Below, one piece after another: positions 13,289-43,134 of a DNA stretch of 46,065 nucleotides. The notes under the pieces were generated by a model. The model was not told the origin of the DNA. It saw only the letters and a program-made list of their open reading frames with translations, and did no database searches. The stretch is from positions 1 to 46,065 of the forward strand of contig JAJYOK010000024.1 in the NCBI GenBank assembly GCA_021796215.1, in the 5' to 3' direction. The position numbers were made by a program, and so were the translations under genes. The DNA comes from Bacteroidota bacterium. Lineage in GTDB: Bacteria; Bacteroidota; Ignavibacteria; UBA10030; UBA8401. Within the stretch, counting starts at the first letter, position 1. Each line of letters begins with the position of its first letter.

Positions 13289-13293
13289 TTCGC

Positions 13294-25260: not shown

Positions 25261-25312
25261 GTAACGCCGAGTTTTTACTCGGCGCCATACACCGCTCAGA
25301 TCCCGGCGTTAC
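25261..25312. repeat. REP-like palindromic unit, copy B
   Basis: Begins GTAACGCCGAGTTTTTACTC and ends CCCGGCGTTAC, with an internal CGCCGAG/CTCGGCG hairpin. The transposase stop codon (25309-25311) lies inside its right arm. Confidence 0.75.
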
Positions 25313-25938: not shown

Positions 25939-25952
25939 GGTGCCGTTCATTT

Positions 25953-26006
25953 GTAACGCCGAGTTTTTACCCGGTGCATGATACGCCGAGCAAAGCTCTG
26001 CGTTAC
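25953..26006. repeat. REP-like palindromic unit, copy C
   Basis: Begins with the same 17 bases as copy B (GTAACGCCGAGTTTTTAC) and ends CTCTGCGTTAC. Internal complementary segments are CGCCGAG/CTC and GTAACGC/GCGTTAC. It overlaps the stop codon of the 44-residue peptide gene (26003-26005). Confidence 0.75.
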
Positions 26007-26137
26007 ATTTTGTTTTGCTGATGCAGCAAGTCCCGCAAATCCTTAAAACCGACAACCGCAATTACTGCGGCAACTCCGAAAAACAAAAAAGTGGAAATTC
26101 CAAAAAGAACGATCCAGACAAGCGCCGCTGAATTCAT
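26003..26137 (-). CDS. 44-residue symporter small accessory membrane peptide
   Basis: The ORF begins MNSAALVWIVLFGISTFLFF, continues with a hydrophobic stretch to about residue 29 and ends with the polar tail GFKDLRDLLHQQNKM. Its ATG overlaps the stop of the symporter gene (ATGA), and a GGAGG lies seven bases upstream, so it is almost certainly co-translated with the transporter. Small single-span peptides encoded next to SSS/NSS symporters are known as accessory subunits; assignment to that group is by position and size. The stop lies inside a REP unit, so the tail may have been altered by that insertion. Confidence 0.7.
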   Translation of the reverse strand: MNSAALVWIVLFGISTFLFFGVAAVIAVVGFKDLRDLLHQQNKM

Positions 26138-27684
26138 ATATTTTCCTCCTTTTCCGCCTCAGGCCGCTTGCGCTCCAAAATTTCGGCAACGGAGCGCAGA
26201 TCAGCCTTCGACTGATGCATTATAATCGGCGGATGTTTTTTCTGGCTGACGAGCGAGCCGACAACCATCCCAAGTGCTGCAAGTACAAAACTTAAAAAAC
26301 CCGAAATATTAACATCAACAAGGAACGAAAGGCTTGAGGGCAGCGAATCTTTGAAGCCGCTCAGAACCAGAAATACAATCGGCGCAAGACCGCCAAGCGC
26401 AAGTGAAAAATATGCACCGACAACATTCGCCCGCTTCCAATATAATCCTGCCGCAACGCACCCGAATGCACCGGCGGCGTACATGGCGCCGGTGATCGCC
26501 GCATATTGAAACACCGTCGCGGGTAGTTCATATAACAATCCAAAGACCAAAATAAAAATTCCGATGAGCGTCGTGATAATGCGCGTGAGCAGGATCGTTG
26601 TTTTCTCATCGAATTCTTTTTTTCGCAGCGGCGCAATAATATCGCGCGTGGCAACTGAGCTCCACGCCAGCATGTATGCGCTGTAGGTTGACATTGACGC
26701 TGCCAACATTCCCGCAATCATCAATCCCAAAAATCCTGACGGCACGACCGCGCCTAACAACTTCGGCATTGCCAGCGTTGAATCAATGTTCGGTCCAAAC
26801 ATCGCCAATGCTGCAACACCCCAAAACATCGGAATCATATACCGTCCGGCGAGTGTGATTCCCGTGTAGAGAAAAACTTTTCTTCCGACTTCCGGACTTT
26901 CCGACGCAAATGACTTCGAGGCGGCGGGCTGGTTGAGCGCAGAAATCGCGACACTGCCGATCAACATCCAGACAAGAAACGACCAGCCGAAATGCGGGTT
27001 GACAACGGGATTGACTCCGGCTTCGCCAAATTGATGAATAACCGTGTTAGCGATTTCACCAATGCTGACACGGAGCAATACAAAGACCGTCGCCACCAGC
27101 ATTCCAAACGAAAGGACAATGAACTGTATAAAATCGGTGATCACAACAGAGAACATTCCGCCAAGCACGGTATAACTGATAACGATTAGCAGCATAATCG
27201 TCATAATGATAAACAACATACCGGAGCTGAACCCCATCGTCTCCGTTAAAAATACTCCGTCCATTTTGAGAAACACTCCCATATTCAGCACGCCGCCGAG
27301 AAACAACAGCACGCCGCCGAGCAATCGGACACCCTTGCTGTATTTTATTTCATAGAATTCAGGAATCGTAATCACCTTCAGTTTGCGAAGCCCGGAAACA
27401 ATAAAGCCTGTTTTGCCGATCACCATATAACCAAGAAAACCGATCACACCGAGAACGAAACACGAAAATCCCGACACATATCCGAGCTGCCCGAAATACA
27501 TAAAGGTGACGATGCCGATCTCTGTGGCAATCAGCGTGGCAGAACCGAGCGCAACTTTCACGCGCCTGCCGGCAACAAAATAGCCCTCCATGTTCTCGAC
27601 ATATTTTTTCGCGCGGATTCCCATGAACACCGAAAAACCGAGATAGAGAATAAGGATGATCCAATCCAACAGATGAAAATTCAT
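26134..27684 (-). CDS. Sodium:solute symporter (SSS family), substrate unknown
   Basis: A 516-residue inner-membrane protein with about 13 spans. The N-terminus LDWIILILYLGFSVFMGIRAKKYVENMEGYFVAGRR, the LGSATLIATEIGIVTFMYFG block and the AGMLAASMSTYSAYMLAWSS segment place it in the SSS family, in a branch distinct from the SGLT-like paralogue at 23376-24980. The cytosolic C-terminus is basic and acidic (ILERKRPEAEKEENI). It sits directly downstream of NamZ and upstream of a small accessory peptide. MurNAc- or GlcNAc-type sugars are plausible cargo, by context only. Confidence 0.87.
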   Translation of the reverse strand: MNFHLLDWIILILYLGFSVFMGIRAKKYVENMEGYFVAGRRVKVALGSATLIATEIGIVTFMYFGQLGYVSGFSCFVLGVIGFLGYMVIGKTGFIVSGLRKLKVITIPEFYEIKYSKGVRLLGGVLLFLGGVLNMGVFLKMDGVFLTETMGFSSGMLFIIMTIMLLIVISYTVLGGMFSVVITDFIQFIVLSFGMLVATVFVLLRVSIGEIANTVIHQFGEAGVNPVVNPHFGWSFLVWMLIGSVAISALNQPAASKSFASESPEVGRKVFLYTGITLAGRYMIPMFWGVAALAMFGPNIDSTLAMPKLLGAVVPSGFLGLMIAGMLAASMSTYSAYMLAWSSVATRDIIAPLRKKEFDEKTTILLTRIITTLIGIFILVFGLLYELPATVFQYAAITGAMYAAGAFGCVAAGLYWKRANVVGAYFSLALGGLAPIVFLVLSGFKDSLPSSLSFLVDVNISGFLSFVLAALGMVVGSLVSQKKHPPIIMHQSKADLRSVAEILERKRPEAEKEENI

Positions 27685-27797: not shown

Positions 27798-29018
27798 TTA
27801 CCGATAAAGGAAATATTTTTCTCTCAGTCTTCCGAATTCCTGCAGCTGCATTTTCCATTGAGAAAAGATTTCTTCGGGATGGATTCCCGCTTCTAATTTT
27901 TTTCTGACGCTCGATGAGCCGGTGAGAATGTCAAAGCGGCGATGGCGAAGCTCCGTCTGCTGCGGATATGCGCGCTTGAAAGCCGCCAGAATTGCAACAC
28001 CTAAACGAACCGCGCGGATTGCATTCCGATCTGTAACTTCAATTTTGATTCCGCGGCACCGCTCTCCTCCGTATTTCGGTGCGCTCGCAACGCCCGGAAT
28101 TTCCTTCGGAATAAATTCACTTGGTGAAAAAACAACTCCGCCAATGGGATTTTCAACCGGCGTTTCGAATGTAGTCAACTCTTTCAGAATTTTCTCCGGG
28201 TCAGCCCACGGCGCGCCGATCAATTCAAACGGCGATGCCGTTCCTCTTCCTTCTGAAATCGAAGTGCCTTCGACAAAACACAAACCGGGGTACACAATCG
28301 CAGTGGACAACCGCTGCATGTTCGGAGACGGTGCGATCCACGGAATGCCCGTATCATCGTACCACATATCCCGGCGCCAGCCTTCCATCGGCACAACCGA
28401 AAGATTCGCTTTTACACCGCCCGCAAGCCAGCCTTCCTCGTTCCACAATTGCGCAAGTTCTCCGATCGTGAGTCCATGTGTAACAGGAATCGGCATCCAG
28501 GCAACAAATGATTTCAGCGGCTGCTCGCGAACAGGCCCATCGTAACAAAGCCCGCGAATCGGATTCGGCCTGTCAAGAATGATGAACGGAACGCGAAATT
28601 CTGCCGCTGCTTCAAGCGCAAGTGCGACGGTCGAGATGAATGTGTAAAACCGCGCTCCGACATCCTGAATATCGCAGACAAGCACATCAATGCGTTCCAG
28701 CATTTCTTTCGTCGGCTTGTGCGTTTTTCCGTAGAGAGAATAGATCGGAACGTGATACTGAGGGTGCGCGGCGTGGTCAACAACAGTTCCGTCCGGCGTG
28801 TCGCCGAAAATTCCGTGTTCTGGCCCATAGAGTGCGGCAAGCGTTGCAATTCCCGATTCGGCAATCGCATTGGCGATGTGTGTGCCGTCGGTTAAGCATC
28901 CGGTATGATTTGTCAAAATACCGACGCGCTTATTTTTGATGAGATCAGAAAAATCACTCAGCAATCGATCGGCGCCGGTTTTAACAATTGAAGTTTTTGG
29001 AGAAAGAATTGTCTGCAT
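27798..29018 (-). CDS. namZ: Exo-beta-N-acetylmuramidase NamZ (DUF1343, GH171)
   Basis: Predicted exo-lytic enzyme that releases MurNAc from the non-reducing end of peptidoglycan fragments, as established for the DUF1343/GH171 family. The 406 residues contain the family blocks KRVGILTNHTGCLTDG, LYGPEHGIFGD, VCDIQDVGARFYTFISTVALALEAA, ILDRPNPIRG, WIAPSPNMQ and CFVEGTSISEGRGTASPFE. There is no obvious signal peptide from the chosen ATG (MQTILSP), and the in-frame extension to 29051 adds none, so localisation is unclear. It lies upstream of an SSS symporter and downstream of a HGSNAT-like acetyltransferase, consistent with cell-wall sugar recovery. Confidence 0.93.
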   Translation of the reverse strand: MQTILSPKTSIVKTGADRLLSDFSDLIKNKRVGILTNHTGCLTDGTHIANAIAESGIATLAALYGPEHGIFGDTPDGTVVDHAAHPQYHVPIYSLYGKTHKPTKEMLERIDVLVCDIQDVGARFYTFISTVALALEAAAEFRVPFIILDRPNPIRGLCYDGPVREQPLKSFVAWMPIPVTHGLTIGELAQLWNEEGWLAGGVKANLSVVPMEGWRRDMWYDDTGIPWIAPSPNMQRLSTAIVYPGLCFVEGTSISEGRGTASPFELIGAPWADPEKILKELTTFETPVENPIGGVVFSPSEFIPKEIPGVASAPKYGGERCRGIKIEVTDRNAIRAVRLGVAILAAFKRAYPQQTELRHRRFDILTGSSSVRKKLEAGIHPEEIFSQWKMQLQEFGRLREKYFLYR

Positions 29019-29054
29019 GAAATCTTGTTTATCCGTGGTGCAAAAATTCATTTG

Positions 29055-29164: not shown

Positions 29165-30265
29165 TTACACTTTCAGAAAAAGATGACGGCGGTACATCCA
29201 ATAACAGAGAAGCCAGCCGAGTCCGACGATGAATGTAGAATACAGAAGCGAGCCGGCAACAGGACCGGCAAATTCAGAAAATGTTTTATAGAAAAATCCG
29301 ATCGGCGACGTCGGCAAGCCGTGCCATTCAACTTTCCATTGCAGCATAACCCACCGGACAAATAACCCGGTCGCTACATACAGCGTGATGGCATTCATGC
29401 CGAAAACAACAAACGGAAATGCCCACGCGGTTTTCTTTTTCACTTCGATGAGCCAGTAGAAAACCGCAAGCACTAAACATGACCACCCTGCGGTGTATAC
29501 TGCAAATGACGAAGACCAGAGAATTTTACAGAGCGGTACGATCTCGTTCCACACAAGTCCGATCGTTACTCCTGCCGCGCCGAACGCGAGCAATGTTCTT
29601 ACAACCGACATATCGTCTTTGCGCTTCAGAATATACTTTCCTGCAATCACACCGAATAACACGGTGGAAATTCCGGGAATCATGCTGATGATTGTTTCTT
29701 TGTCATTGGGCGAGAGAATAAAACTGTCAAGATATTGCGCCGAATTGACATCGCGCAAAAACGAACCCGGAATAACGCCGGGACCTTTGACAAACGCGAG
29801 AATCGCCCACCAAACGAAAAGCATTGCAACGGAAATCACCCACTGCCACTTCACTTTTAGCCGAAGCAAAAGGAAAACAATGAAGTACAAAACGCCGATG
29901 CGCTGAAGAATCCCGAAATGCAGCACCGGCATATTCAGTAATGCCGATTTGAGGAACGCGCCGAAGAAATACAACAACAGCGCTCTTCGCGCCGCGACGA
30001 GAATTTCTTTCCAGTATGGAACAGCGGCTTCACGTTTCTTCGCATCGCTGAATGGCATTGCCACACCGACGATGAATAAGAAGAATGGGAAAATCAAATC
30101 GGCAAAGGTGCAGCCGAACCATTCAGAGTGGAGCAACTGATGCGGAACAATTGTCTCGTCCCATGTGCCGGGATTGTTGACGAATAACATTCCCGCAATC
30201 GCAAATCCGCGAAACGCATCGAGTGATGTCAGGCGTTTCGTAAGAAATGAATTTGATTCAGACAT
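29165..30265 (-). CDS. HGSNAT-like membrane acetyltransferase (DUF5009 / COG4299)
   Basis: Polytopic inner-membrane protein of 366 residues with about ten spans, related to heparan-alpha-glucosaminide N-acetyltransferase. The N-terminal TKRLTSLDAFRGFAIAGMLFVNNPG, the FADLIFPFFLFIVGVAMPFS stretch and the ILQRIGVLYF segment are characteristic. The family moves an acetyl group across the membrane onto the amino group of a glucosamine, which fits this amino-sugar locus. The ATG at 30265 is preceded by GAGG; the upstream extension lacks family sequence. The bacterial substrate is not established. Confidence 0.88.
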   Translation of the reverse strand: MSESNSFLTKRLTSLDAFRGFAIAGMLFVNNPGTWDETIVPHQLLHSEWFGCTFADLIFPFFLFIVGVAMPFSDAKKREAAVPYWKEILVAARRALLLYFFGAFLKSALLNMPVLHFGILQRIGVLYFIVFLLLRLKVKWQWVISVAMLFVWWAILAFVKGPGVIPGSFLRDVNSAQYLDSFILSPNDKETIISMIPGISTVLFGVIAGKYILKRKDDMSVVRTLLAFGAAGVTIGLVWNEIVPLCKILWSSSFAVYTAGWSCLVLAVFYWLIEVKKKTAWAFPFVVFGMNAITLYVATGLFVRWVMLQWKVEWHGLPTSPIGFFYKTFSEFAGPVAGSLLYSTFIVGLGWLLCYWMYRRHLFLKV

Positions 30266-30456
30266 ATTTTCCTCATTTATTGCTGAAGACACACAAACAA
30301 AAAGAACATCATTTCCGAATGCTTTTATCGGGAATCTGATTACCGGAATCTGATTAAAATAATGGATTCCCGTCTTCCTGCCTACCGCAGGCAGACGCGC
30401 GAATGACAATCCTCTGGTTTGATTCTCTAAAAGTCATTTGGCGTAACTTCAGTTTA

Positions 30457-32304
30457 TTATTTGAATAAAGCATCATAGACTTCAATTTCCCGAATCGCGT
30501 ACGACGAACCTTTCTTGTCACCACTTAAACCTTCCACGCGCAGGTAACGAGCGTTCGTTACGTTTTGAAATTCAAACAATTCCACGCCGCCGTTTCCATT
30601 CGAAACAGTGTGAACCACTTTCCACTTTTTACCATCAGTTGAAACTTCAATGCGATAATTACTCGCATAATTTTCTCCCCAGTAAATTTTCACCGAGGCA
30701 ATGCGCTGAAGTTGTTTCCATGTTAATTGCAGCCACTCATTATGTGTCTCCTTCAGCGCCATTTTCAATTTCTCATCGGGCGTCACACGAATTCCGGATC
30801 GCCAGCGGGTATCCATATTTCCATCAATCGCTTGTGAAGGTTGAAAATTTCCGGGACCCCAAAGCGCATTCTCCGGCGAGTATGACGACGCACTCGCCGA
30901 TGCGATCAAAGCAATATTCCGGAGAGGCAAAACAGAATCACGGGAAATGATGTTTATCATCATAAACGAGTACGGCGGCGCATCAATGGCCAAGTATCCG
31001 GACGTAAGAGAAATATCAGGAAGCCTTTCGTTCTTTCGCTTCTTGTCGAGAATCCAGACGTTCGCTTTTTCTGAAGGAGTAAAATTGCTAAACGCGATTT
31101 GTACTCGATGCGGTTTGCGTTCGTCTTTGTTGATAAGCGCAATCGAAATCCGTTTGCCATCTTTCGCGGCATATGCAGAAACATCCGCAGTACTTGAAAC
31201 AGCAGAGACAACTTCGTTGCCGAAATGCTCCGCGAACATCGGAAAAACATAGTAGGCATATCGGCGTGTATTCCTGCCGTCGGAAGAAAGATAGCCGAAG
31301 TCGCCGCCGCGGGGAGGATACTCATTATGAAGCGCCCAAAAACAAGAAACGTCGGTTTTCACTTCCGCCATCGTTCCAAGCATGTCGGCTGACCAGAGTG
31401 CATTCGCCAGCGAAATCGTCTGCGGTCCCGGCGAATGGTTCACGGAATTATATCCAACGTTGATGAACAGCAGCTTGTCCGATTTTTCTTTCCCGAGCGT
31501 GTGTTCAACTGTTTCTTTGAGATCGAGGAAAAGCTTTCGGTACCAGCCAACGCTTGCAAACAACGTGTCGTCGTTTTCCTTTCCCCACGAAAGAGGAAAA
31601 TAGGTGAACGTCAGCAAATCGTAGTAACCATCAGCGGCGCGCAGAACGCGCGGCGTCCATCCTTCTGATTGTGAACCGAGCGACGGCGAATTTGTCCCAA
31701 GAACTTTTCGACCGGTGAGGGCGACATTGATCGCGACTTTAATCGTTGAATCAACATCTTTCATCGCTTTGACAAATGAAACAAATTTTTCCGCATATTC
31801 TTCCGGTGTCGAATGCCCTTTTGCCCACGTTCCCCATTGTTCGTCGCCGACTTCCCACAGTTTCACATGATAGCCGCGCTCTTTGTTGCAGTAACGCACC
31901 CATTCTGCGGCAAGCGAGGGCGGCTCGTTGAAATTAATTGTGATGAACGGCTCGGCGCCGACTTCGCGGCAAAGCGCAATGTATTCATCCGTGTTCATAT
32001 CGCCGTCATTACTGGAAGACGAATTCCAGATATAATGGTCGGCATCGTTGCCGCCCGGATATTTCAGCAGCGTTACGCCCGACGCTTTGATTTTCTGAAT
32101 TGCATCACGGCCGCACGTGAGAAGCATTTCATTCGCCGGACCGGGAAACAGCGATTCGTCCCACCGTGCCGTGTTGATGCCGTAGAGCCACGGATTCACG
32201 GTGTGAATTACTTTCGCCGCATCAACTGTCACTCTGACATCTTGTGCGAGACTGATCGTATGAAAGCCCAAAAGAATAAGAACGATCGTTAAATATTTTT
32301 TCAT
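30457..32304 (-). CDS. Secreted GH51-like arabinofuranosidase homologue with discoidin (F5/8 type C) domain, nucleophile replaced
   Basis: A 615-residue exported protein with signal peptide 1-20. Residues about 25-430 follow the GH51 alpha-L-arabinofuranosidase plan: YGINTARWDES, LLKYPGGNDADHYIW, KLWEVGDEQWG with the acid/base Glu155, and ALWSADMLGTMAEV. Where GH51 enzymes have the nucleophile as T-E-Y-N-S, this reads V-G-Y-N-S: codon 284 is GGA (Gly). The expected Glu-Glu spacing (about 120-130 residues) is otherwise kept. A C-terminal discoidin/CBM32-like domain (about 475-612) should bind sugars. The start has CGGAG six bases upstream, within the end of the upstream GNAT gene. Probably a binding protein or altered enzyme. 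Confidence 0.8.
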   Translation of the reverse strand: MKKYLTIVLILLGFHTISLAQDVRVTVDAAKVIHTVNPWLYGINTARWDESLFPGPANEMLLTCGRDAIQKIKASGVTLLKYPGGNDADHYIWNSSSSNDGDMNTDEYIALCREVGAEPFITINFNEPPSLAAEWVRYCNKERGYHVKLWEVGDEQWGTWAKGHSTPEEYAEKFVSFVKAMKDVDSTIKVAINVALTGRKVLGTNSPSLGSQSEGWTPRVLRAADGYYDLLTFTYFPLSWGKENDDTLFASVGWYRKLFLDLKETVEHTLGKEKSDKLLFINVGYNSVNHSPGPQTISLANALWSADMLGTMAEVKTDVSCFWALHNEYPPRGGDFGYLSSDGRNTRRYAYYVFPMFAEHFGNEVVSAVSSTADVSAYAAKDGKRISIALINKDERKPHRVQIAFSNFTPSEKANVWILDKKRKNERLPDISLTSGYLAIDAPPYSFMMINIISRDSVLPLRNIALIASASASSYSPENALWGPGNFQPSQAIDGNMDTRWRSGIRVTPDEKLKMALKETHNEWLQLTWKQLQRIASVKIYWGENYASNYRIEVSTDGKKWKVVHTVSNGNGGVELFEFQNVTNARYLRVEGLSGDKKGSSYAIREIEVYDALFK

Positions 32305-32305: not shown

Positions 32306-33259
32306 TCATTCTCCGATATCTTTCTTCATAATCATGTGGCGGCGAATGACTTTTAGTCCGACTTTATGATAGAAATCTTTTGCGCGCCCGGTTGTCCATG
32401 CAAGCCAGAGATTGTGTTTTCCTTTTTTTCGCATCTGTTGAACTGTACTGTAATAAAGCAATGGGCCCAAACCGCGGCCGATGTATTCTTTGTGAATACC
32501 GAAGGGACCATAGCGTTCATCGAGAAAATGACTGAAGCCGACAACTTCATCACCTTTAAGCGCAACGAGAATTTCGTCGCATTCAGGATTTTCGGTAATG
32601 CGTTCAAGCGCAACGCGAAACAGATCGCCGGGATAATTCTCGCGGAGAAACTCCAGCACTTTCAGCGTATAGCCCGGCTTAAAGACGCTGACGGTAAAAC
32701 CAGATTCGTTCAATTTTTTGAGGACGCCGTTCACTTCTTCCGGGACGTGCACATCAATTAACGAACGTCCCATGCCATACACGCTTTCCACTTTTTTGTA
32801 GCCGCTCTCTTTGAGAAAAAGAAAACTTTCCGCGTACGCATCGAGATCAACACCGGGAATAAAATAATTCGGCGTGTAATCGGAAACGAAAATTTCTTCG
32901 ACACCTTCCTGTTTAAGAAAGCGCTCCGCTTCAATGAGAAGCTTTGCTGCAATCTGCTGCCGGCGCCATTGCGGATGAACAAAAAACGCCGTTACCCAGC
33001 CTTTGCCCGGCTCCAGTCCTAAATCGTAATACGGATAGCGGCGGCGTATGCTCAACAGAAATCCGACGATCTCTTTTTGTAAACCTCGTTGGGACTTCAC
33101 CGTTGCAACGAAACAGCCGCGCGCGTCAAAATTCGGATCGAGAATAATTTTCCGGCGGAATGTGTTGAGTGAAATCTCATCACGCGGCAGACACTGGTTC
33201 CATAACGCGATGACCCCCTGCTCGTCTTCTGCTTCATAATGGCGGATGGAGTATGTCAT
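32306..33259 (-). CDS. Double-GNAT-domain acetyltransferase, paralogue 1
   Basis: A 317-residue cytoplasmic protein built of two GNAT folds. The N-terminal domain (1-150) carries VTAFFVHPQWRRQQIAAKLL, whose RRQQIA occupies the acetyl-CoA loop. The C-terminal domain (about 165-315) carries GIHKEYIGRGLGPLLYYSTVQQM, in which GRGLG is the better conserved CoA-binding turn. The overall plan, including the SDYTPNYFIPGVDLDAY insert, is shared with the paralogue at 34178-35140. The substrate is unknown; amino sugars are plausible because a PIG-L deacetylase gene lies between the two copies. The stop is one base before the GH51-like start. Confidence 0.82.
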   Translation of the reverse strand: MTYSIRHYEAEDEQGVIALWNQCLPRDEISLNTFRRKIILDPNFDARGCFVATVKSQRGLQKEIVGFLLSIRRRYPYYDLGLEPGKGWVTAFFVHPQWRRQQIAAKLLIEAERFLKQEGVEEIFVSDYTPNYFIPGVDLDAYAESFLFLKESGYKKVESVYGMGRSLIDVHVPEEVNGVLKKLNESGFTVSVFKPGYTLKVLEFLRENYPGDLFRVALERITENPECDEILVALKGDEVVGFSHFLDERYGPFGIHKEYIGRGLGPLLYYSTVQQMRKKGKHNLWLAWTTGRAKDFYHKVGLKVIRRHMIMKKDIGE

Positions 33260-33376: not shown

Positions 33377-34084
33377 TTACGGGAGCAAATCCACGACGCG
33401 TTTTTTTTCGAACGGATCAACATCGAATGCTTCGGCGTATTTCGTTCCGGCTTCTGCGCCCCGAACACGGGCAAGCGCTTCGTAATACTCCAGATACGGA
33501 AAGGCTGAAATTCCACCCTTGATGAACTGATACTGCGTAACGCATTCTTTCCACAATTCTAATTCTTCAGAAACATCAACATAAAGATACGGCTTGAAGC
33601 CTTCAGGGTCTTCCCAATTTTCGGTGAAATAAATCGCCTTGATTCCCCGGTGACGCGGATGTTTGGTTACAACCCCTTCCAACGACGCAAGAAGAATGGC
33701 ATCCATCACAATCGAATACGTGTTCGCGTGATCTTTGTGAATGCTGTTTTTCCAATGCGTGATGACGTGCGTCGGCTTCACCTGACGAATTATATCGGCG
33801 ACATAACGGCGCGCTGCTTCATCGTTCGGAAGCTCGCCATCTTTGTACGGTGCGAAAAGAGCTTCTGCGCCGATCACTTTCGCTGCAGCAAGAGCTTCTC
33901 GATGTTTTAGTTTGCCGTACTCTTTCGGCGACATCGCCGGATTTCCGCCTTCACCTAACGTAAGATGAAGAAAGACAATTTGTGCGCCATGTTTTTTATG
34001 TTTCGCAAGCGCTGCCGCACAGGTTACTTCCATGTCGCCGCAATGTGCGCCGATGGCAAGAAAGGTTTGGGAAGAAGTGTTCAT
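33377..34084 (-). CDS. PIG-L (LmbE-like) family deacetylase with altered AHPDD motif
   Basis: Predicted zinc-dependent N-deacetylase of 235 residues, a family that acts on GlcNAc-type substrates (GlcNAc-PI, mycothiol precursor, BshB). The hallmark AHPDDxE appears as AHCGDME: the metal-binding His14 and Asp17 and Glu19 are kept, but the Asp that serves as general base in MshB is Gly16. The distal HKDH (H116, H119) metal motif is present. This may mark a distinct subfamily or a loss of activity. It is flanked on both sides by double-GNAT genes, suggesting a deacetylation/acetylation pair. There is no clear ribosome binding site. Confidence 0.82.
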   Translation of the reverse strand: MNTSSQTFLAIGAHCGDMEVTCAAALAKHKKHGAQIVFLHLTLGEGGNPAMSPKEYGKLKHREALAAAKVIGAEALFAPYKDGELPNDEAARRYVADIIRQVKPTHVITHWKNSIHKDHANTYSIVMDAILLASLEGVVTKHPRHRGIKAIYFTENWEDPEGFKPYLYVDVSEELELWKECVTQYQFIKGGISAFPYLEYYEALARVRGAEAGTKYAEAFDVDPFEKKRVVDLLP

Positions 34085-34177: not shown

Positions 34178-35140
34178 TCACAATTCTTTTTTCAGCAGTG
34201 TAAACCGCCGCGTTTCTTTGAAGCCGAACTTTCCATACACTTTCGCCGCGCGGTCATCGGTCCACATCACCCATGCATTATGATATCCTTGCTGTTTCAT
34301 CCGCTCAATTGTCCGCGCAAGCAGCACGGTGCCGATACCTTTCCCTTGAAACGCATCGCTCACGCCGAACGGACCGAAATGCGAACCTTCAAACTGGCAG
34401 TAGCCAATAATGTCGTTGCCTGTCGCCTTCTGCGCCATCTTTGATTTTGCAACAACTGTAATTTGATCGGTACGAAAAGTTCCTTCTTCAATTTTCCGGA
34501 GATTACGCCGCTCAACGCGCACCCAATCCGAGGGCATTGTCCGTTCCAGAAAATCAAGAAAGCGAAGAAGATCGCTCCGCTGATACTGACGAATCACGAT
34601 ACCGTTTTCATTCAGCGTTCGCTCAAGCTTTTTCACGTCTTCCGACACTTCAAACAAAACAATTGGCGCATCCATGCTAAGCGCTTCGTGATACGGAGCG
34701 TAGCCGTGCGACTGGAACAACGCGAGCAGCGGCGTGTATGCTTTCTGATCAATCCCCGGCGCAAAATATCCGGGCGGATAACCGGAGACGAAGCATTCTT
34801 TCTTGCCGAGTTTTTTAAATCGCTGTTCCAATTCGGAAAGCAACTTGCCGCCAACTTCTTCCATATTTGATTTTGGATGAACAGCGAGAATTGTAATCCA
34901 GCACCGGCCGCCGTTCGGATCGGCGTCGCCTAAAGGCATTCGCCGTGCATACGCGCCGATGATGAATCCGACAAGATTGTTATTGTCACGGGCAAGGAGA
35001 AAAGCTTCAGCGTCAAAATTTTCATCGAGAAGAACCCGCGTTTCAAAAATCTCTTCCGTTACGGCATCAAGCGGAAGCGCTTCTGCCCAAAGAGAAAGAA
35101 CTTCTTTGCGATCGAAATCGGTAAATGGTGCGATGTTCAA
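34178..35140 (-). CDS. Double-GNAT-domain acetyltransferase, paralogue 2
   Basis: The 320-residue paralogue of the protein at 32306-33259, with the same two-domain plan. The first domain has ITILAVHPKSNMEEVGGKLL and the shared SGYPPGYFAPGIDQKAY insert. The second has GVSDAFQGKGIGTVLLARTIERM, with a canonical Q/R-x-x-G-x-G turn, and ends RAAKVYGKFGFKETRR. In the first domain the CoA loop is degenerate (SNMEEV), so catalysis probably rests on the second. The start is TTG at 35140 with GGAG seven bases upstream, overlapping the PorV-like stop (TTGA). Confidence 0.82.
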   Translation of the reverse strand: MNIAPFTDFDRKEVLSLWAEALPLDAVTEEIFETRVLLDENFDAEAFLLARDNNNLVGFIIGAYARRMPLGDADPNGGRCWITILAVHPKSNMEEVGGKLLSELEQRFKKLGKKECFVSGYPPGYFAPGIDQKAYTPLLALFQSHGYAPYHEALSMDAPIVLFEVSEDVKKLERTLNENGIVIRQYQRSDLLRFLDFLERTMPSDWVRVERRNLRKIEEGTFRTDQITVVAKSKMAQKATGNDIIGYCQFEGSHFGPFGVSDAFQGKGIGTVLLARTIERMKQQGYHNAWVMWTDDRAAKVYGKFGFKETRRFTLLKKEL

Positions 35141-36162
35141 TATGAGACTCCGAGTGAAATAAAATGTACTGCGCTGAAAATTCCAAACGGCTCATACGCA
35201 TAATCGAGATGCAACGTATAGCCGGAAAAATTCTGTGACACTCCAAAACCAGCCGTGAATCCCCGCTCATCCAGTCCGGTCATATATCCGGTACGCAGGG
35301 TAAACATTTTTGCAAAATTATATTCGCCGCCGAAGCGCAGACTTTCACTGAAATCCCTCGGATGCGTTGACTGCACACTGAGAACAAATGAATGTTGTGA
35401 CGATGCATAGTCTGTCAGCAAAAATGAAAGCGGGTCAACAGTCAAACCGAAATTGACAGAGAACGGCAGAAAAAATGCCTGCTGAACGTACGTAATTTGC
35501 CGGGAAACATTTTGAAGAGCCGCGGCAAAGCGAATGCCATGAGACAGAAAATCGTACATCGCACCGACATCGAACGCCGGTTCTCCGTGCACATATTTAA
35601 TTGTTGATAATTGGCCCGGGTCGGAAATATCTGCGCCTGACGGGGCAACCCACGCGCCGCCTAAATTCTGATACGCATACTTGATATGAACGCCGTAAGA
35701 AAATCTGTCGCTCACCTTCTGAGAAAATCCGACTCCCACGGCAAACGCCTGCGGACTAAAAGTCCCTGTCTCGACATAGCCGTCGGAATTGTTGGCGTAT
35801 CGCGTTCCGTAGAAATTGCCGTAGTCCATAGCCACGCCGTCAAAAGCGAGCACGCCAAAGTCCCATAATTGAAAGGCGACCGAGGGAGCAAAATAATTAA
35901 TGTTTGCAATTCCTTGTGTGTAGCTGACATTGAAATCAATTTTCTGTTCAATCCAACCAAGCCCCGCCGGATTCCAAAAAACTGCATCTGAATTCGTCAT
36001 TGTTGCAACACCGCTGCCGGCTTTCCCCATCGCTTCTGCAGAAACGGGGTTTTCAAGAAACCGGAAACCAGCTTGGGCTTCCTCTGTTTGCGCTCGTACG
36101 TTGCTGCTCAAAAAAACAATTGTCAGCACGACAGCAATTAAATAAGAAACGGATTTATTCAT
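35137..36162 (-). CDS. PorV/PorQ-family outer-membrane beta-barrel protein (UPF0164)
   Basis: A 341-residue exported protein, signal peptide about 1-25 (MNKSVSYLIAVVLTIVFLSSNVRAQ). The mature start GFRFLENPVSAEAMGKAGSGVATMTNSDAVFWNPAGLG is the hallmark of the PorV/UPF0164 family. It is followed by alternating strands ending in an aromatic C-terminus (HFISLGVSY). PorV-type barrels act in T9SS as shuttles or surface anchors for cargo. A gene for a T9SS-tailed protein is immediately upstream, which supports such a role. The ATG at 36162 has GGAG eight bases upstream. Confidence 0.85.
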   Translation of the reverse strand: MNKSVSYLIAVVLTIVFLSSNVRAQTEEAQAGFRFLENPVSAEAMGKAGSGVATMTNSDAVFWNPAGLGWIEQKIDFNVSYTQGIANINYFAPSVAFQLWDFGVLAFDGVAMDYGNFYGTRYANNSDGYVETGTFSPQAFAVGVGFSQKVSDRFSYGVHIKYAYQNLGGAWVAPSGADISDPGQLSTIKYVHGEPAFDVGAMYDFLSHGIRFAAALQNVSRQITYVQQAFFLPFSVNFGLTVDPLSFLLTDYASSQHSFVLSVQSTHPRDFSESLRFGGEYNFAKMFTLRTGYMTGLDERGFTAGFGVSQNFSGYTLHLDYAYEPFGIFSAVHFISLGVSY

Positions 36163-36199
36163 CTCACTATCTCCAATTGTATTGCCATTTAAAATTGCA

Positions 36200-38329
36200 T
36201 TACCTGACAATCACAAATTTTACAAACTGATCCGAAAGGTTTTCACCATTCAAACCTTTTGAATTAGTAACGGCAAGAATATAAATGCCGCTTGCAACAT
36301 ACTGGTTGCTCGAAGTTCGCTGATCCCAATAATCATCAGCCGGTCCATAATGGCTCCAACGTTTAATCAAATTCCCCGTTTCAGTATAAATTGAGAGAGT
36401 GCATGAAACGGGTAAATTGAATAACGCAATTTGGTCCGTCGGCCCTCCTCCGGTCTTAGAAGGGCGGCCCAGCGCTCCGGAAGCCGACGTCGCAGGATTG
36501 GGAACCACTCTCACCCTGCCGGAGACACTTAGACCCGGTTTGAACGGAGACGCCGCTAACGAGGTGCGGGTGGCATAGCGAGAACTTTCCAATTTCGTTC
36601 CCGGATAAAGACCGTTATTCTGTGTGCCGTCATTCACCGAAGTGACCGCGTAATAATAATTCACGCCTCTCGTTCCACTCGTATCTTTGAAAGTTGTTTG
36701 ATTCCTATCGTGAGTTTCATACACTAACTGCCACGTCGCACCGGTCCCCTGGTCATTCGGGTCGTCAACATAATATGCGCCGGTCTTCCGATAGACTCGC
36801 CACGCATACCAATCGTCAACACCTGTAACTGCATTTTTAAAATATGAGAGATCAGGGTAAGACCAACTCACGACGTTCCAGCCCGGACCGCTTTGCACAC
36901 TAACATCAGGAGGAGGGGGGGGCGCGGGAATTGCTCTGCCATGACTGAGCTGATCCCATGCCCAATATGCACGATCAATGGAATTCACAAGTGAATCTCT
37001 TCCGCCGTTGAGAATAATACTGTCTTTCACGGCATCGCTCATGCTTCCGCCGAGCCATGCACGTCCAACACTGTCGGCAACTTCATAAGGAACCGAGCCT
37101 GATGCGATTCCATACACGAACGTTACTGAGTCATATCTGCCGGCAGCATCATTCTTTGTAAGGCTATACGGACCTGCGGAGATGAAACGCATCGGCCCTT
37201 TTTGTATTCCTTCTCCTGTCGTTACCGGATCTAAGGGAAATTTTTCAGTGCTTTCTGTCCCAACGTAAATATTTCTAAAATCTTTTCCTGTTTGCCAAAG
37301 GCTGGTAGTGATCGCGGCATGCATCATGGAATACGGCTCGGCAGGATCATCGGCATTATTCTGCAGCGAAACTGGCGCGTACAATAAGGCATATCCCGGT
37401 ATCTGCGATGAATAAATATGTCCGGTTGTTCTGTCAGGATTAAAGCTGGCATCTTTTGAGCCGTTGGGATATGTCGGTGAACCGGCAATGTTCGGCAGAT
37501 AATAGCACCAATAATAAGCAACTTTTAAGTCTGTTCTTGGATCATCAGTAACAAGCTGCGATGTCTTGTTGATCCAACTGTCTAAGACGTTTTCGCTTTC
37601 AACAGGATATCCTCCATAGACTTCATCGTACCCGCCCATTGTCGGTCCAAAGCTCATCGAGAATGGCCACCACATTGTTATCGTCTGGTCTGGAAGCCGT
37701 CTCTGTGGTTTGTATTTTGGAAGTGCGATTTCTCCGGTGAACGTTAACGTAATCTGCCAAATTGCGACATTGGCTAATTCCGGATTGCTGAATGTGTAAA
37801 TTCGCACATGCGCTCGTACTCCGTATGCTGGTATAAGGTCATTGAACTCACAGATTTCGTCTGCCTTCAACGCCGGATCAACCTGTCCGTTGTATTGCGG
37901 ATTCAGTTTTATGCCGTCAACATAAATGTCTGGCGGGCGAAACCTTCTTCTTTCCCACGTCCAATCAGTTGCGGCTTGGCTTATAGGCTGTGAAGGCTCT
38001 GCAAATTTCGGATGCCTCACACCTGCCGTATCAACGATGCCGCTGTCTGATAACATGATCGGGCTGAATATTTGGAAAAGCATATTCGAAAGGTATTGGT
38101 CAGCAGGCCAGAAAAAATCAAAATCAGGCCCATATGTTGCATAATTCCAGCTATACTCATTTACCATTCCACCGTCACCGCGAGTTTTGCTCGGCGTCCA
38201 GTGAATAGAATTCACATCAATTGTCAGCGGCGGTGCAGTGTAGTTCGGCTGGCTCACTGCAGCCGACTGATACAACATGACCACTGCGGCAATTATGGTA
38301 ATCTGTAATTTCATTTTACACGTCAGCAT
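36200..38329 (-). CDS. Large secreted protein with fibronectin-III-like and T9SS sorting domain, unknown function
   Basis: A 709-residue exported protein that I do not recognise in its main part (about 30-470). That part is rich in Trp, Tyr and Pro (NSIHWTPSKTRGDGG, TMWWPFSMSFGPTMGGYDEV). A proline run (APPPPPP) links to a fibronectin-III-like domain (about 485-600), in which WRVYRKTG and TTFKDTSGTRGVNYYYAVTS are typical. The C-terminal about 90 residues (VRVVPNPATSASG ... ASGIYILAVTNSKG) are a type IX sorting domain. The ATG at 38329 has GAGGAG seven bases upstream. It lies between the chitinase and PorV genes and is probably a surface glycan-binding or structural protein. Confidence 0.72.
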   Translation of the reverse strand: MLTCKMKLQITIIAAVVMLYQSAAVSQPNYTAPPLTIDVNSIHWTPSKTRGDGGMVNEYSWNYATYGPDFDFFWPADQYLSNMLFQIFSPIMLSDSGIVDTAGVRHPKFAEPSQPISQAATDWTWERRRFRPPDIYVDGIKLNPQYNGQVDPALKADEICEFNDLIPAYGVRAHVRIYTFSNPELANVAIWQITLTFTGEIALPKYKPQRRLPDQTITMWWPFSMSFGPTMGGYDEVYGGYPVESENVLDSWINKTSQLVTDDPRTDLKVAYYWCYYLPNIAGSPTYPNGSKDASFNPDRTTGHIYSSQIPGYALLYAPVSLQNNADDPAEPYSMMHAAITTSLWQTGKDFRNIYVGTESTEKFPLDPVTTGEGIQKGPMRFISAGPYSLTKNDAAGRYDSVTFVYGIASGSVPYEVADSVGRAWLGGSMSDAVKDSIILNGGRDSLVNSIDRAYWAWDQLSHGRAIPAPPPPPDVSVQSGPGWNVVSWSYPDLSYFKNAVTGVDDWYAWRVYRKTGAYYVDDPNDQGTGATWQLVYETHDRNQTTFKDTSGTRGVNYYYAVTSVNDGTQNNGLYPGTKLESSRYATRTSLAASPFKPGLSVSGRVRVVPNPATSASGALGRPSKTGGGPTDQIALFNLPVSCTLSIYTETGNLIKRWSHYGPADDYWDQRTSSNQYVASGIYILAVTNSKGLNGENLSDQFVKFVIVR

Positions 38330-38370
38330 CTTCTTGCTCCTCTTCCCGATTTTATAATTCGAGAATGACA

Positions 38371-39777
38371 TTATTTTAGATACAACATAGATTTTGAAAA
38401 CGCATGATCATTGACATAAAGAACAGAGAAATACATTCCACTCGATAAATTACTTGCATTAAACACAACTTCATGTTTCCCCATCTTCTCCGTTTCGTTC
38501 ACCAGCGCCGCTGCTTCTCTTCCGAGAACATCATAGACCTTCAACACAACGTGACCGTTCACCGGTAATTGATATTCGATTGTTGTTGAAGGATTGAACG
38601 GATTAGGAAAATTCTGCAAAGCAAAATCCCGGCATGACGTTGTTCCTTGGTGCACAACTGCTGTCGGTGTATTCAATTGCTGCCATGTTGTTTCAAGCAG
38701 AGGCTGCGAGATTCCAAGATTGTCCATGCCGAGTCTCCAGATAATCACACCACCTAAATTCTTCTCCCGAAGATACTCGCATTTGTATCGAATCGAAGCA
38801 GTATCATCAAATGTGATGATGTGAGTATTTGAAGGATCAGTTAGGTAGGGACCTTTTGCGACATCGTCCCAATGATAAATCCAGCCCGATTTTTGATACG
38901 CAACCGCAGCAGCATAAGATACAGATGGCGCACTTCCTGTTCGCGGTTTATAAAGTCCGGCAGACTGAAAGCTGTAGCCATAGAATGCAAGCCCCATGAA
39001 AAGTTTCGATGTTGGAATGACTGCACTCTGAAGAAACTGAATTACCGAAGAGTTCACTGAACCTTGATTGTTGTCCGTCTCCGAATAAAGTGGAGACACG
39101 AAACCGGAAGTGGACGTCCATCCTCCATAATAATCGTACGTCATAACGCCAATCCAGTCGAGCAAATCCGCAAGTGCGATAAAGTTGTATCCGCCAGCTA
39201 AGTAGCCGGGTGCAGTGATGCTCAGAGAAAGCTTCCTGTCGGCAGTAGCAAGAGAATCGTGCAAAGATTTTATCATCAAAACAAAATTTACTTTGTCCGC
39301 TGTACCGGGATATTCCCAATCTATATCCACACCGTCATAGTTATTCTGAAGACAGAAATTTTTCAAGTTGCCTGCAAACTTCGCCCGTGCGACTGCATTT
39401 CCTGCGATTGACGGGAAGCCATAACCCTTCCCATCCCCGTAACCGCCGACAGAAACAATTACCTTCACGTTGTGTTGATGTGCAGCGTTGATCATCTCCG
39501 GATAAAGATAATTTTGCCATGCGGCTCCGCCTTCAGGCGATAAGCTTCCGTCCGCATTCGGCACAATGAATGCTTCGGCTATGCAGTTTATTTTGTCAAG
39601 CTTGATCATTGTATAAGGGAAAGAAGACTTATCCCAAAAATAATAGTAGCCTACCACAGATTTATTTTGGGCGAAAGAATCTCTTGAGATCACTATGAAT
39701 GCAATGAACGTCAGCAGAATGTGAAACAGTGAAATATTAGAATATCTTGGATTCAGCGTCGTCAAATCAATTCTCAC
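38371..39777 (-). CDS. GH18 chitinase-like hydrolase with T9SS sorting domain
   Basis: Secreted family 18 glycoside hydrolase of 468 residues, expected to cleave beta-1,4-GlcNAc polymers. The catalytic DxxDxDxE is intact (DGVDIDWEYP, D148 to E155, with E155 the proton donor). The barrel strands VIVSVGGYGDG, IGVMTYDYYGGW and KLFMGLAFYGYSF match the fold, and GGVIIWRLGMDN ends it. A T9SS type A tail begins NFPNPFNPSTTIEYQLP. An internal signal-like segment (about 17-36) gives export. The start is GTG, overlapping the TonB receptor stop (GTGA), so receptor and chitinase are translationally coupled. Confidence 0.92.
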   Translation of the reverse strand: MRIDLTTLNPRYSNISLFHILLTFIAFIVISRDSFAQNKSVVGYYYFWDKSSFPYTMIKLDKINCIAEAFIVPNADGSLSPEGGAAWQNYLYPEMINAAHQHNVKVIVSVGGYGDGKGYGFPSIAGNAVARAKFAGNLKNFCLQNNYDGVDIDWEYPGTADKVNFVLMIKSLHDSLATADRKLSLSITAPGYLAGGYNFIALADLLDWIGVMTYDYYGGWTSTSGFVSPLYSETDNNQGSVNSSVIQFLQSAVIPTSKLFMGLAFYGYSFQSAGLYKPRTGSAPSVSYAAAVAYQKSGWIYHWDDVAKGPYLTDPSNTHIITFDDTASIRYKCEYLREKNLGGVIIWRLGMDNLGISQPLLETTWQQLNTPTAVVHQGTTSCRDFALQNFPNPFNPSTTIEYQLPVNGHVVLKVYDVLGREAAALVNETEKMGKHEVVFNASNLSSGMYFSVLYVNDHAFSKSMLYLK

Positions 39778-42700
39778 AGGTCTACCTTAACGCCGAATAA
39801 AATACGGCGTGGATTCAGGAAAATAGGTGCAGTCCACCAGCCAACATCAATGTACGACTTGCTCGCCGATGGTATATCTCCCCATTTATCGTTTCCTTTC
39901 ATATCTCCTGAATTGAACGGCAAGTGAAGAGAATTTTTATATGCGTCTAACTGATTAGGAGTCATATTGCCGATATCCAATCGTTTCTCATTCAGCACGT
40001 TTTGTACTGTGAGAATGAATTGGAAATTGATTGTGCTGATAGATAATGTTTTTGCTAACCTCAAATCGAGGTTTGTATAATCAACAACTTCTACCCACTC
40101 CTGTTTTTTTATATCCGGTTCTTGCGGATTCCATAACATCTTACCGCCCGACCTCCAATCAAACAGGAGGTCCAAATACCAACTGCTAAAAGCCATGCTC
40201 CAGTCCGGGGGCGTATGAAGATTCAGATCAACATGGGCTCGCGGCCGAGGAATCGTTGTAGCGAGGTTCGCGGATCGCAGCGCATCCGATGCTTCAAGCT
40301 GATTTTCGTAAATCGCCGCCAAGCCGCTCTGCCCGTAACTTTGCAGCATATAATCGTAGTTTGCCCAGAAGGTCACAAATCTTCCCATGGTTCTGTCGAG
40401 CCGCATTTCGAGCCCCTCAACAATGTTGTATCCATCCGGAACGTACTGTGTCACGTTGTTATCATGGTAGTAATCAATATACGTTTGGGAAAGAGGCTGG
40501 TTCCTCACATCTTTGTAATAGAAGGAAACCGTTGCGAGAAAGTTTTCCAAGAAAGATTGCTCATATCCAAACTCATAAGAAATTGTCTTACCCATCGAAA
40601 GATTAGGCGTTGGAACTGTTGCTGCCGCAGGATAAAGCGCGAGATCATAGAGAAAGGAAACCGGAGGGCGTTGATAAAAATGCCCATAATTAAAATACAG
40701 TTTGCTGCTTTCAGTTATCGGAAAGGAAACTGATAAGCGCGGAGAAACCGGCATTTGAGCTTTGCCCGGAACGGTCGGCCATCCCGGCGGAGATGCGATC
40801 ATGTTTTCATACGCCAGCCACCTCTGATAAGAACCGAATGAACCCGGCAGATTCGAATAAACGTCATTGTAAAACGCCGTGTAAGCAGGCGAAGGCGGAT
40901 TAGTCACTGCGAATCCATCTTTGTTAGGATTCCAATAATCCACTCTCACCCCTAAGTTCGCTATCATTCCTTCGAACTCCAATTTGTCCTGGAGATAAAT
41001 TCCACCAGTCAGAGGCGTGACATTATAATATTGCCAAAGATCGGGCGTCCATGATGTCTGCGATTGCAGCCATGTACCTGAATACACATGGAAGCGCGTC
41101 ATCTCCATTGTGAATCCGGCTTCGAACTGGTTATGTCTGTCGAATTGCCATACAAAATCACCGTTCACTTGTCCAACCCACGTGTATGATGAATCAATTC
41201 TCTGTGGGCCGCCAGCAAGACTAAACATGTTGAGGACATCCGGGCTGTAATTCGTGGAGGCGTTGGGGGAACCGCCCGCAGGAATTTTCATAATTTTTAT
41301 TGCGCCAGGCTGCGGAGTCGTGTACACTGTATCGCCCACCATATAGTACCACGAGCTAACCTGACTTGTATCAAGTGAGTACGAAGACAATCGCGGTGCA
41401 TTATATTGGAAATGTGTACTCAACGTGTAAAAAGCAGTCGGAGAAATTGTGTGTGTGTATTTCGCTCCCCCGATAATATAGCGCTGATCGTACAGCTGCA
41501 TTCTGCTGAGGTTGTAAATTTGCGGAAAGCTTCCGCCGCCGATAAGTAAGGCTTGCTGTTCGACTGAGCTTTGCGTGTTAGTCAGAAATCCGAAGCTGGA
41601 AGAATTTTCCTGAAGTGCTCCGCTGAAATTACTGGCTCTTCCGGTATTCAACGTGCTGACATTGGCAAACATCCCTTCTATTGTCAACTTATCAGCAGAA
41701 GCAACCTCTGTCGTAAGTTTGAGTTGAACGTTCCAGTCTAAATAATTATTTCTGTCTCCGATCGGATACGCAAACTGCGTGTCCTCATATTTTACTCCGA
41801 GAAGAAAAGTGGTACGGCCAAAATAGTCTCCGAGCAGCGGGATGCTTCCGCCGGGAACGGGACCGGTTAAGCTTCCTTCGAAATAATAATCGGGCCGGGT
41901 CGCTATAGCATACTGCGGATGTTGAAGTTTCCAGATTTCCATTCGTTGAGTTGAATCAAGTTGTGTCAACGGAATAAATCCGGCGGGGAATTGTATGTAA
42001 GGCGCCGAGAAGTTACCTGTGTTATAGCGGTAAAAGTTGCCTTGCTTTTTTCCATCAGCCCAGCCCTTGAACCCCCAAAACTCGGAAGGAACCGCCAGGC
42101 TGTCGCCGTGCGTCCGTATGCCGCGCATCGCATATTTGCCGGCAAACACTTGATAAATCATGGACTGATCGCTCCATGGGTTGGTGCCGAAAAATTTTTG
42201 TTGTCCCCCGGCAGTCATATTGTAATTTAGAGACAAGGTGTATTTTTCGCGATTGCCTTCTTTTGTAATCGCATTGACAATGCCCGATTGAATGCCGCCA
42301 TACTTTGCCTGAAATCCTCCTGTCATCACCTGTAATTCTTGAATCGTAGTGGAATTGAAAGAAAGGTATGAATTTTCAGAGCGCGGGTCTTGGAGCGAAA
42401 TATCGTCCAAACGCACGTCTGTTTCTCTAATTGCTCCGCCACGAATGCTCAAACCGTGCCCTTGATTATTATCTACAAGCTCGATCCCCTGAAGTTTACC
42501 GACAAGTTCATCAACGCGTGTCATCGGAGCTTCCTGAATCGTTTGAGCATGAATCACTTCCTGCGTGCTTGCAACATCGGCTTTAATAACATTCGGCCGG
42601 TACACTACTTCCACACCCGACATTTGAATGGCGCCCTGCTCCAATGAAAAATTAAGCGTGATGGTCCGGTCTGCTTCAACCCGTACCATTTTCTCAACAA

Positions 42701-43010
42701 CAGAGACATATCCTAACATCCTCGCCGTAACTGTGTACACGCCCGGCGGAACGTTCAAAATAAAATAGTAACCGTCAACATCGGTAGCTCCTCCCATCTG
42801 GCGGCTCAACGGGGCTTCGCTTCCATCCGAAAGCAAAATGCTCGTCACCATCACATTCGCGCCCGGCAATGCTTCCTGAGTCCCGCGGTCAACAACGCGG
42901 CCCGTAATTTTTCCGTTACCGGCAATGGCGGCATTGATGAAAATAAAAATACTGATTGCTGCAACGAGGAAGGGTTTGCGATAGGCGAACAAAATAGTCT
43001 GGCGTTTCAT
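39774..43010 (-). CDS. SusC-like TonB-dependent receptor with carboxypeptidase-regulatory N-domain
   Basis: Outer-membrane receptor of about 1078 residues. A signal peptide precedes a carboxypeptidase-regulatory-like domain (GKITGRVVDRGTQEALPGANVMVTS, DVDGYYFILNVPPGVYTVTARMLGY). The plug follows (VDELVGKLQGIELVDNNQGHGLSIRGG ... MTGGFQAKYGGIQSGIVNAITKEG), then the 22-strand barrel rich in Tyr and Trp, ending GVKVDL. It should take up an oligomer in a TonB-driven manner. Coupling to a GH18 gene suggests chitooligosaccharides. No SusD-type lipoprotein is encoded beside it. The ATG at 43010 is preferred over an extension to 43049. Confidence 0.9.
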   Translation of the reverse strand: MKRQTILFAYRKPFLVAAISIFIFINAAIAGNGKITGRVVDRGTQEALPGANVMVTSILLSDGSEAPLSRQMGGATDVDGYYFILNVPPGVYTVTARMLGYVSVVEKMVRVEADRTITLNFSLEQGAIQMSGVEVVYRPNVIKADVASTQEVIHAQTIQEAPMTRVDELVGKLQGIELVDNNQGHGLSIRGGAIRETDVRLDDISLQDPRSENSYLSFNSTTIQELQVMTGGFQAKYGGIQSGIVNAITKEGNREKYTLSLNYNMTAGGQQKFFGTNPWSDQSMIYQVFAGKYAMRGIRTHGDSLAVPSEFWGFKGWADGKKQGNFYRYNTGNFSAPYIQFPAGFIPLTQLDSTQRMEIWKLQHPQYAIATRPDYYFEGSLTGPVPGGSIPLLGDYFGRTTFLLGVKYEDTQFAYPIGDRNNYLDWNVQLKLTTEVASADKLTIEGMFANVSTLNTGRASNFSGALQENSSSFGFLTNTQSSVEQQALLIGGGSFPQIYNLSRMQLYDQRYIIGGAKYTHTISPTAFYTLSTHFQYNAPRLSSYSLDTSQVSSWYYMVGDTVYTTPQPGAIKIMKIPAGGSPNASTNYSPDVLNMFSLAGGPQRIDSSYTWVGQVNGDFVWQFDRHNQFEAGFTMEMTRFHVYSGTWLQSQTSWTPDLWQYYNVTPLTGGIYLQDKLEFEGMIANLGVRVDYWNPNKDGFAVTNPPSPAYTAFYNDVYSNLPGSFGSYQRWLAYENMIASPPGWPTVPGKAQMPVSPRLSVSFPITESSKLYFNYGHFYQRPPVSFLYDLALYPAAATVPTPNLSMGKTISYEFGYEQSFLENFLATVSFYYKDVRNQPLSQTYIDYYHDNNVTQYVPDGYNIVEGLEMRLDRTMGRFVTFWANYDYMLQSYGQSGLAAIYENQLEASDALRSANLATTIPRPRAHVDLNLHTPPDWSMAFSSWYLDLLFDWRSGGKMLWNPQEPDIKKQEWVEVVDYTNLDLRLAKTLSISTINFQFILTVQNVLNEKRLDIGNMTPNQLDAYKNSLHLPFNSGDMKGNDKWGDIPSASKSYIDVGWWTAPIFLNPRRILFGVKVDL

Positions 43011-43134
43011 AGCACATCCTATTAAAAATGGTGAAGTTGAAAACCGCACCTCAATGTGTGCGACATGGTGCAGCTTATTTCAAACTGTGATGGGAGGGTG
43101 AAATAGTGAGTAGTTCAGTACGGGCAGAAATTAA

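Follow-up and report, generated by a model that had tools for sequence, protein, structure and literature searches.

A GH51-fold protein with glycine at the probable nucleophile position, encoded in an amino-sugar gene cluster: a putative substrate-assisted glycosidase

The α-L-arabinofuranosidases of family GH51, such as those of T. maritima (3ug3) and T. xylanilyticus (2vrk), consist of a (beta/alpha)8 barrel and a beta-sandwich and carry a PGGN motif and an acid/base Glu. Clan GH-A, which includes GH51, is known as the retaining clan whose catalysis depends on two Glu residues. In GH51 the Asn preceding the acid/base and the nucleophile both hydrogen-bond the sugar O2 (PMC7604909). The GH20 β-N-acetylhexosaminidases use an adjacent Asp-Glu pair in substrate-assisted catalysis that proceeds via an oxazolinium intermediate, as described in PMC4752478, where formate was used for chemical rescue. 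In the GH51 enzyme PoAbf the mutant E449G was made to identify the nucleophile (PMC4686458). The protein analyzed here has in common with GH51 the barrel plus beta-sandwich, the PGGN motif and the acid/base Glu. However, it appears to carry Gly284 in place of the nucleophile Glu and has Asp154 in place of the Asn, and its family combines these changes with a discoidin domain and an amino-sugar gene cluster. With GH20 it shares, at the level of mechanism only, the adjacent Asp-Glu pair and the amino-sugar context, substrate assistance being a proposal in this case; the GH20 model PF00728 gives no match in the protein at E 0.01. With the PoAbf mutant (PMC4686458) it shares a Gly at the nucleophile, which was lab-made there and is natural and fixed in the Gly284 family.

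The GH51-fold gene encodes 615 amino acids on the minus strand (30457..32304) of the window, the whole 46,065-nucleotide stretch of DNA analyzed here. A likely signal peptide, read from the sequence, covers residues about 1-20 (32245..32304), with a helix at 2-17 in the model, and the protein is predicted to be secreted. It is followed by the GH-A barrel, a beta-sandwich part at residues 361-455 (30940..31224) that is defined by model strands and by a partial match to the GH51 C-terminal domain model PF06964 (residues 342-423, E 0.0013, under cut-off), and a discoidin or CBM32-like domain at residues 470-610 (30475..30897). The full-length AlphaFold2 model has a mean pLDDT of 79 and is weak around residues 281-300 (block means 57-59). 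It aligns with 3ug3 over 392 residues (Z 34.2, rmsd 2.5, 21% identity), and the GH51-like fold that a preliminary description had read from the DNA is borne out. By sequence the N-terminal half matches GH51 arabinofuranosidases (3s2c, E 5.9e-19 with phmmer and 9.2e-29 with a 27-row profile). The only Pfam matches above cut-off lie in the C-terminal discoidin domain (PF00754 and PF22633); the F5/8 type C match to PF00754 spans residues 470-600 with E 4.1e-18, in keeping with the discoidin domain noted earlier. The GH51 family models stay under cut-off (PF06964, 19.4 of 27 bits; NF051901, 42.8 of 625 bits). Since these cut-offs and two GH51 features, the nucleophile and the Asn, all fail, the protein is treated as a GH51-fold relative and is not filed as a GH51 enzyme. 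The best matches of the discoidin domain are the discoidin domains of a Paenibacillus chitosanase (E 3.9e-10 with phmmer, 2.3e-25 with the 27-row profile), so that its nearest solved relatives by sequence are DD1/DD2; this CBM32 likeness leaves the ligand unfixed. DD1/DD2 are reported to bind chitosan (PMC5651945).

The putative acid/base Glu155 (31840..31842, minus strand) lies at the end of beta4, which spans 149-152 in the model, within the motif W-E-V-G-D-E-Q-W-G, and is intact in all 27 rows of the orthologue alignment, as had been supposed. The codon at 31453-31455, tcc on the plus strand, is indeed the minus-strand codon 284 of the 615-aa frame and reads GGA, and Gly284 stands 129 residues from Glu155, again as first described. 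To read out the end of beta7, residues 21-285 were modelled alone (29-row alignment, mean pLDDT 70.8, last block 67), so that the last aligned pair from a structural aligner marks this point. The fragment was aligned with VIA-align 2 to 1000 PDB chains, of which only the end pair is printed. Against GH51 rows it gives Z 16.1-17.2 and rmsd 5.4-6.4 over about 240 residues. Tyr285, the fragment end, is matched to residue 299 of the T. xylanilyticus entries 2vrk and 2vrq and of five 6zt6-6zta entries; the nucleophile of the T. xylanilyticus GH51 enzyme is Glu298 (PMC7604909). In the galactanase 2gft it pairs with residue 264, and the title of that entry names E263A as the nucleophile mutant. It also pairs with residue 295 in 1pz3, 1pz2, 6sxu and 6sxv, with 293 in 2c7f, 2c8n, 5o7z and 5o81, with 282 in 3ug3, 3ug4, 3s2c and 4atw, with 279 in 2bfg and 2bs9 and with 300 in 4obs. 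We take the nucleophiles of these structures to be residues 294, 292, 281, 278 and 299, respectively, i.e., in each case the residue one before the pair; they include the GH51 enzymes of G. stearothermophilus, C. thermocellum and T. maritima, the GH39 enzyme XynB1 and human iduronidase. By the nucleophile numbers that we assume for them, 5la4, 5bwi and 7pr9, as well as those GH79 rows that end at 289 (heparanase, some GH79), are off by one residue. With Tyr285 one past the nucleophile, Gly284 falls on the nucleophile itself provided that the strand end is ungapped. Based on this structural placement with a model of moderate quality, Gly284 most likely occupies the nucleophile site, where the preliminary description had put it. 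A Glu is absent from residues 278-287 in all 27 rows.

Further changes become apparent in a comparison with 30 canonical GH51 relatives from the same class. The nucleophile of these relatives was located by motif, and its own count of 30/30 is therefore circular. The residue before the acid/base is Asp in 27/27 family members (Asp154, 31843..31845, minus strand) versus Asn in 30/30 relatives. Together with Glu155 it forms an adjacent Asp-Glu pair at the acid/base, as in the GH20 mechanism, that is present in 27/27 rows and whose role here is putative. The residue two before the nucleophile position (Asn282, 31459..31461, minus strand) is Asn in 20 and Asp in 7 of the 27 rows, compared with a hydrophobic residue in 29/30 relatives and Lys in one. 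Because the GH51 Asn and nucleophile both touch O2, the changes at Asp154 and Gly284 sit at the C2 substituent of the sugar. In addition, the Glu of the GH51 motif YGxFxE (29/30 relatives) corresponds to Ala46 when read ungapped from the invariant Gly42. The best profile matches among the canonical relatives (E 9e-27 to 5.6e-34) come from a GH51-like group of 742-784 aa in the same class (L095-L100) and cover the acid/base region (E-V/I-G-N-E-Q). These proteins differ from the Gly284 family in having Asn-Glu and, in 5 of 6 cases, a TEW or SEW nucleophile motif (TEN in L099).

The orthologue alignment comprises the window protein and 26 orthologues, picked by similarity and 45-83% identical to it. 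Gly is found at position 284 in 27/27 rows, which settles the earlier question of Gly or Glu in orthologues. Asp154, Glu155, Gly284, Tyr285 and Asn286 are invariant, as are Asp49 and Glu50 (W48-D49-E50), and the motifs V-G-Y-N-S and W-E-V/I-G-D-E-Q-W-G are present throughout. The Gly284 codon itself varies (GGA, GGC, GGT, GGG). A read error or local mutation at codon 284 is ruled out by Gly in 27/27 rows with all four Gly codons, and a fresh one-base mutation by the fixation of Gly in the orthologues seen. Invariant residues amount to 89/340 in the barrel (21-360), 2/95 in the beta-sandwich (361-455) and 16/160 in residues 456-615. In comparison with two orthologues about 80-83% identical, dN/dS is 0.14 and 0.17 (NG86) or 0.17 and 0.19 (YN00); the open frame and these values of 0.14-0.19 rule out a relaxed pseudogene. 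On a tree of 30 rows representing 28 distinct proteins (two genomes occur twice), residue 282 requires 4 Asn/Asp changes, at least 2 of them forced by supported branches, which indicates that a carboxylate at 282 is not essential. The rows of this tree were chosen by VGYNS, so the tree is silent on VGYNS itself.

A contig scan yields 28 loci, of which 27 come from Bacteroidetes, Bacteroidota or Ignavibacteria-type MAGs and one is labelled only bacterium; since the scan relied on patterns taken solely from the window protein, it may have overlooked distant orthologues. Of the 391 genomes sampled from the class, 31 give a match with an E-value under 1e-100. Among viral contigs no member of the Gly284 family was found, and three GH51 were found. 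A canonical GH51 query returns nothing at E 1e-20 from the window's own genome. Several MAG contigs (L009, L010, L058, L059, L060, G043, G614, G686 and G008) end or start within the GH51-fold gene at about codons 259-298, possibly due to k-mers common to co-assembled strains; synonymous sites vary in this region.

The GH51-fold gene is part of a conserved amino-sugar cluster with GH18, NamZ, NagX-like, PIG-L, GNAT and symporter genes, all on the minus strand. On one side, 47 bp away, lies a gene for a homologue of the NagX/HGSNAT-like transmembrane glucosamine N-acetyltransferase (29165..30409; PF07786, E 3.1e-13; NF046061, E 2.6e-50, its 171.6 bits falling short of the 480-bit cut-off). It is followed by a homologue of the NamZ-type exo-β-N-acetylmuramidase (27798..29051; PF07075, E 6.1e-79; PF20732, E 1e-46) and an SSF sodium:solute symporter (SSF2, 26134..27684; PF00474, E 4.6e-27). 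On the opposite side, separated by 1 bp, is a double GNAT acetyltransferase (GNATa, 32306..33259; Pfam), and beyond it a PIG-L family deacetylase (33377..34084; PF02585, E 3.6e-27), a second double GNAT acetyltransferase (GNATb, 34178..35140; Pfam) and a PorV/PorQ family outer-membrane protein (35137..36210; NF033709, E 4.4e-47). The next gene encodes a 723-aa protein (36200..38371) with a weak match to a T9SS PorZ tail (NF052228, E 7e-4, under cut-off) and no Pfam match at E 0.01. The series continues with a GH18 chitinase-like protein with an intact DGVDIDWE motif and a T9SS tail (38371..39777; PF00704, E 8.7e-63), which matches PDB chitinases, and a TonB-dependent receptor (39774..43049; PF00593, PF07715). 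GNATa and GNATb are paralogous, about 34% identical, and tied to the PIG-L deacetylase. An IS200-like transposase ORF (25309-26061, minus strand; PF01797) lies within the cluster between two symporter genes; in locus L034 a symporter is followed by a beta-lactamase-like gene without the IS200-like ORF.

Co-occurrence in the 28 loci was scored by best BLAST hits at 1e-8. NamZ, GNATa and GNATb are each found in 20 loci, NagX in 19, PIG-L in 18, SSF2 in 17, PorV in 11, homologues of the 723-aa protein in 9, GH18 in 8 and the TonB receptor in 3, many of the absences being contig ends. Of the 20 loci that extend more than 1 kb downstream, 19 contain NamZ, the exception being L048, which has 8 kb downstream. 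The NagX count includes many hits that are only 34-38% identical; the hit counted for one clade is a gene lying upstream, at that identity. Out of 60 genomes, 8 have close GNATa homologues (at least 65% identity), and these 8 all belong to the 9 carriers; G008, the remaining carrier, has a mere gene fragment at a contig start. GH20 matches over cut-off are found in all 31 carrier genomes searched, of which 20 are strong and 11 weak (best E 1e-18 to 1e-9), and strong GH3 matches likewise in 31/31, with NagZ and other GH3 counted together. Thus, there is no missing hexosaminidase to explain, no metabolic gap points to this protein, and its being a replacement for a missing hexosaminidase is unsupported.

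The preliminary description, correct as to fold, acid/base and, by structure, the Gly, had overlooked Asp154, the polar residue 282 and the amino-sugar cluster; taken together, these three favor a re-tooled enzyme. The cluster and the Gly at the nucleophile suggest that the acetyl group of the sugar itself may do the job of the lost residue. The best explanation, still a tentative one, is a putative glycosidase for 2-acetamido sugars in which the acetamido group replaces the nucleophile and a GH20-like Asp-Glu pair operates on a GH51 scaffold. Such an enzyme would be secreted and active on 1,2-trans 2-acetamido sugars, with β-GlcNAc or β-MurNAc in chitin or peptidoglycan fragments as candidate substrates. 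Gly284 would free the space formerly occupied by the nucleophile, and the 2-acetamido group of the substrate would fold into it so that the carbonyl oxygen could attack C1, giving an oxazolinium intermediate. Asp154 may orient the acetamido N-H, Asn/Asp282 may line the new pocket and Glu155 would act as the acid/base. The discoidin domain would hold the amino-sugar polymer, and NagX might re-acetylate glucosamine ends, allowing an acetamido-dependent enzyme to cleave them. Overall, a GH20-like mechanism would have evolved on a clan GH-A scaffold. It can be proposed, with a little more hesitation, that a clan GH-A lineage lost its nucleophile and turned to substrate assistance on 2-acetamido sugars and arrived by convergence, still with a GH51 fold, at the Asp-Glu pair of GH20. 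If true, the loss of one Glu and the gain of the Asp of the pair would show one glycosidase mechanism turning into another. Among the matches listed in the literature, titles and abstract openings reveal no nucleophile-less clan GH-A enzyme with substrate assistance.

The conservation of the family would be equally expected of a binding protein and in this respect counts against substrate assistance. A catalytically dead protein whose barrel pocket and discoidin domain bind amino-sugar oligomers without bond cleavage would account for the Gly in 27/27 rows, the attached CBM32-like domain and the GH20 and GH3 matches in all 31 carriers. Nevertheless, this is rather unlikely given the invariance of the acid/base and of its motif and given that the neighboring Asn-to-Asp change is specific and fixed, unlike decay. 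In that case the family would be a GH-A pseudoenzyme that is well conserved and encoded among amino-sugar genes.

The alignment itself may be off, such that residue 282 (Asn/Asp) and not 284 is the nucleophile position, which would be compatible with all functional readings. In the model beta7 ends at 282, and MAFFT alignments of the 27 family and 30 canonical rows place the nucleophile there, in three modes, for 28 of the 29 relatives in which the motif was found. Sequence-only results vary with rows and method, however: MAFFT with 6-9 relatives gives residue 278, hhalign with L016 gives 283, another alignment gives Ser287, and hhalign with the 30 relatives gives 284 in 21/30 by Viterbi and, once realigned, a gap in 23/30 and 284 in 6/30. 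Because the answers (278, 282, 283, 284, 287 or a gap) depend on rows and method, sequence-only placing was dropped and structure preferred, the earlier assignment of Gly284 holding in the structural alignments with GH51 and other clan GH-A enzymes but only in part in these. Since the end pairs of the structural alignments with GH51, GH39 and 2gft entries point to 284, and since either way there is no Glu and 20/27 rows lack a carboxylate at 282, such a shift appears improbable. Nine loci were omitted from the MAFFT, hhalign and residue comparisons with the 30 relatives: L104 (wrong frame), L111 and L125 (partial), L119 (a family member), L115-L118 (repeats of L096, L095, L097 and L099) and L129, an apparently valid GH51 (GNE, VDEW) whose omission had no sound basis and which agrees with the other relatives. 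In L095 the motif misplaced the nucleophile (residue 107) in the MAFFT and hhalign counts; in the residue comparison it was set by hand.

A glycosidase using another enzymic nucleophile or base, be it Asp154, Asn/Asp282 or one of the acidic residues in the invariant W48-D49-E50, would fit the invariance of Asp49, Glu50 and Asp154 and the Asp at 282 in 7/27 rows. We know of no precedent in clan GH-A, and the Asn in 20/27 rows and the repeated Asn/Asp changes make 282 a poor fit for an obligate carboxylate nucleophile; this option is considered distinctly unlikely. A glycosidase, phosphorylase or transglycosylase relying on an external nucleophile (phosphate, formate or an acceptor), akin to laboratory nucleophile-to-Gly mutants, has the resemblance of Gly284 to the GH51 mutant E449G (PMC4686458) in its favor but leaves the Asn-to-Asp change at 154 unexplained and is very improbable. 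The two functions offered in the preliminary description, a sugar-binding protein and an external nucleophile, thus rank second and lower relative to substrate assistance.

Elsewhere in the window, a SIR2_2-domain ORF (20495-21571, minus strand; PF13289, E 5e-9) is located near an unannotated ORF of 302 aa and may have a role in defence. A gene for a DUF2334 protein of 1313 aa overlaps a family 2 glycosyltransferase gene (12029-17235, minus strand), and the two are perhaps an exopolysaccharide pair.
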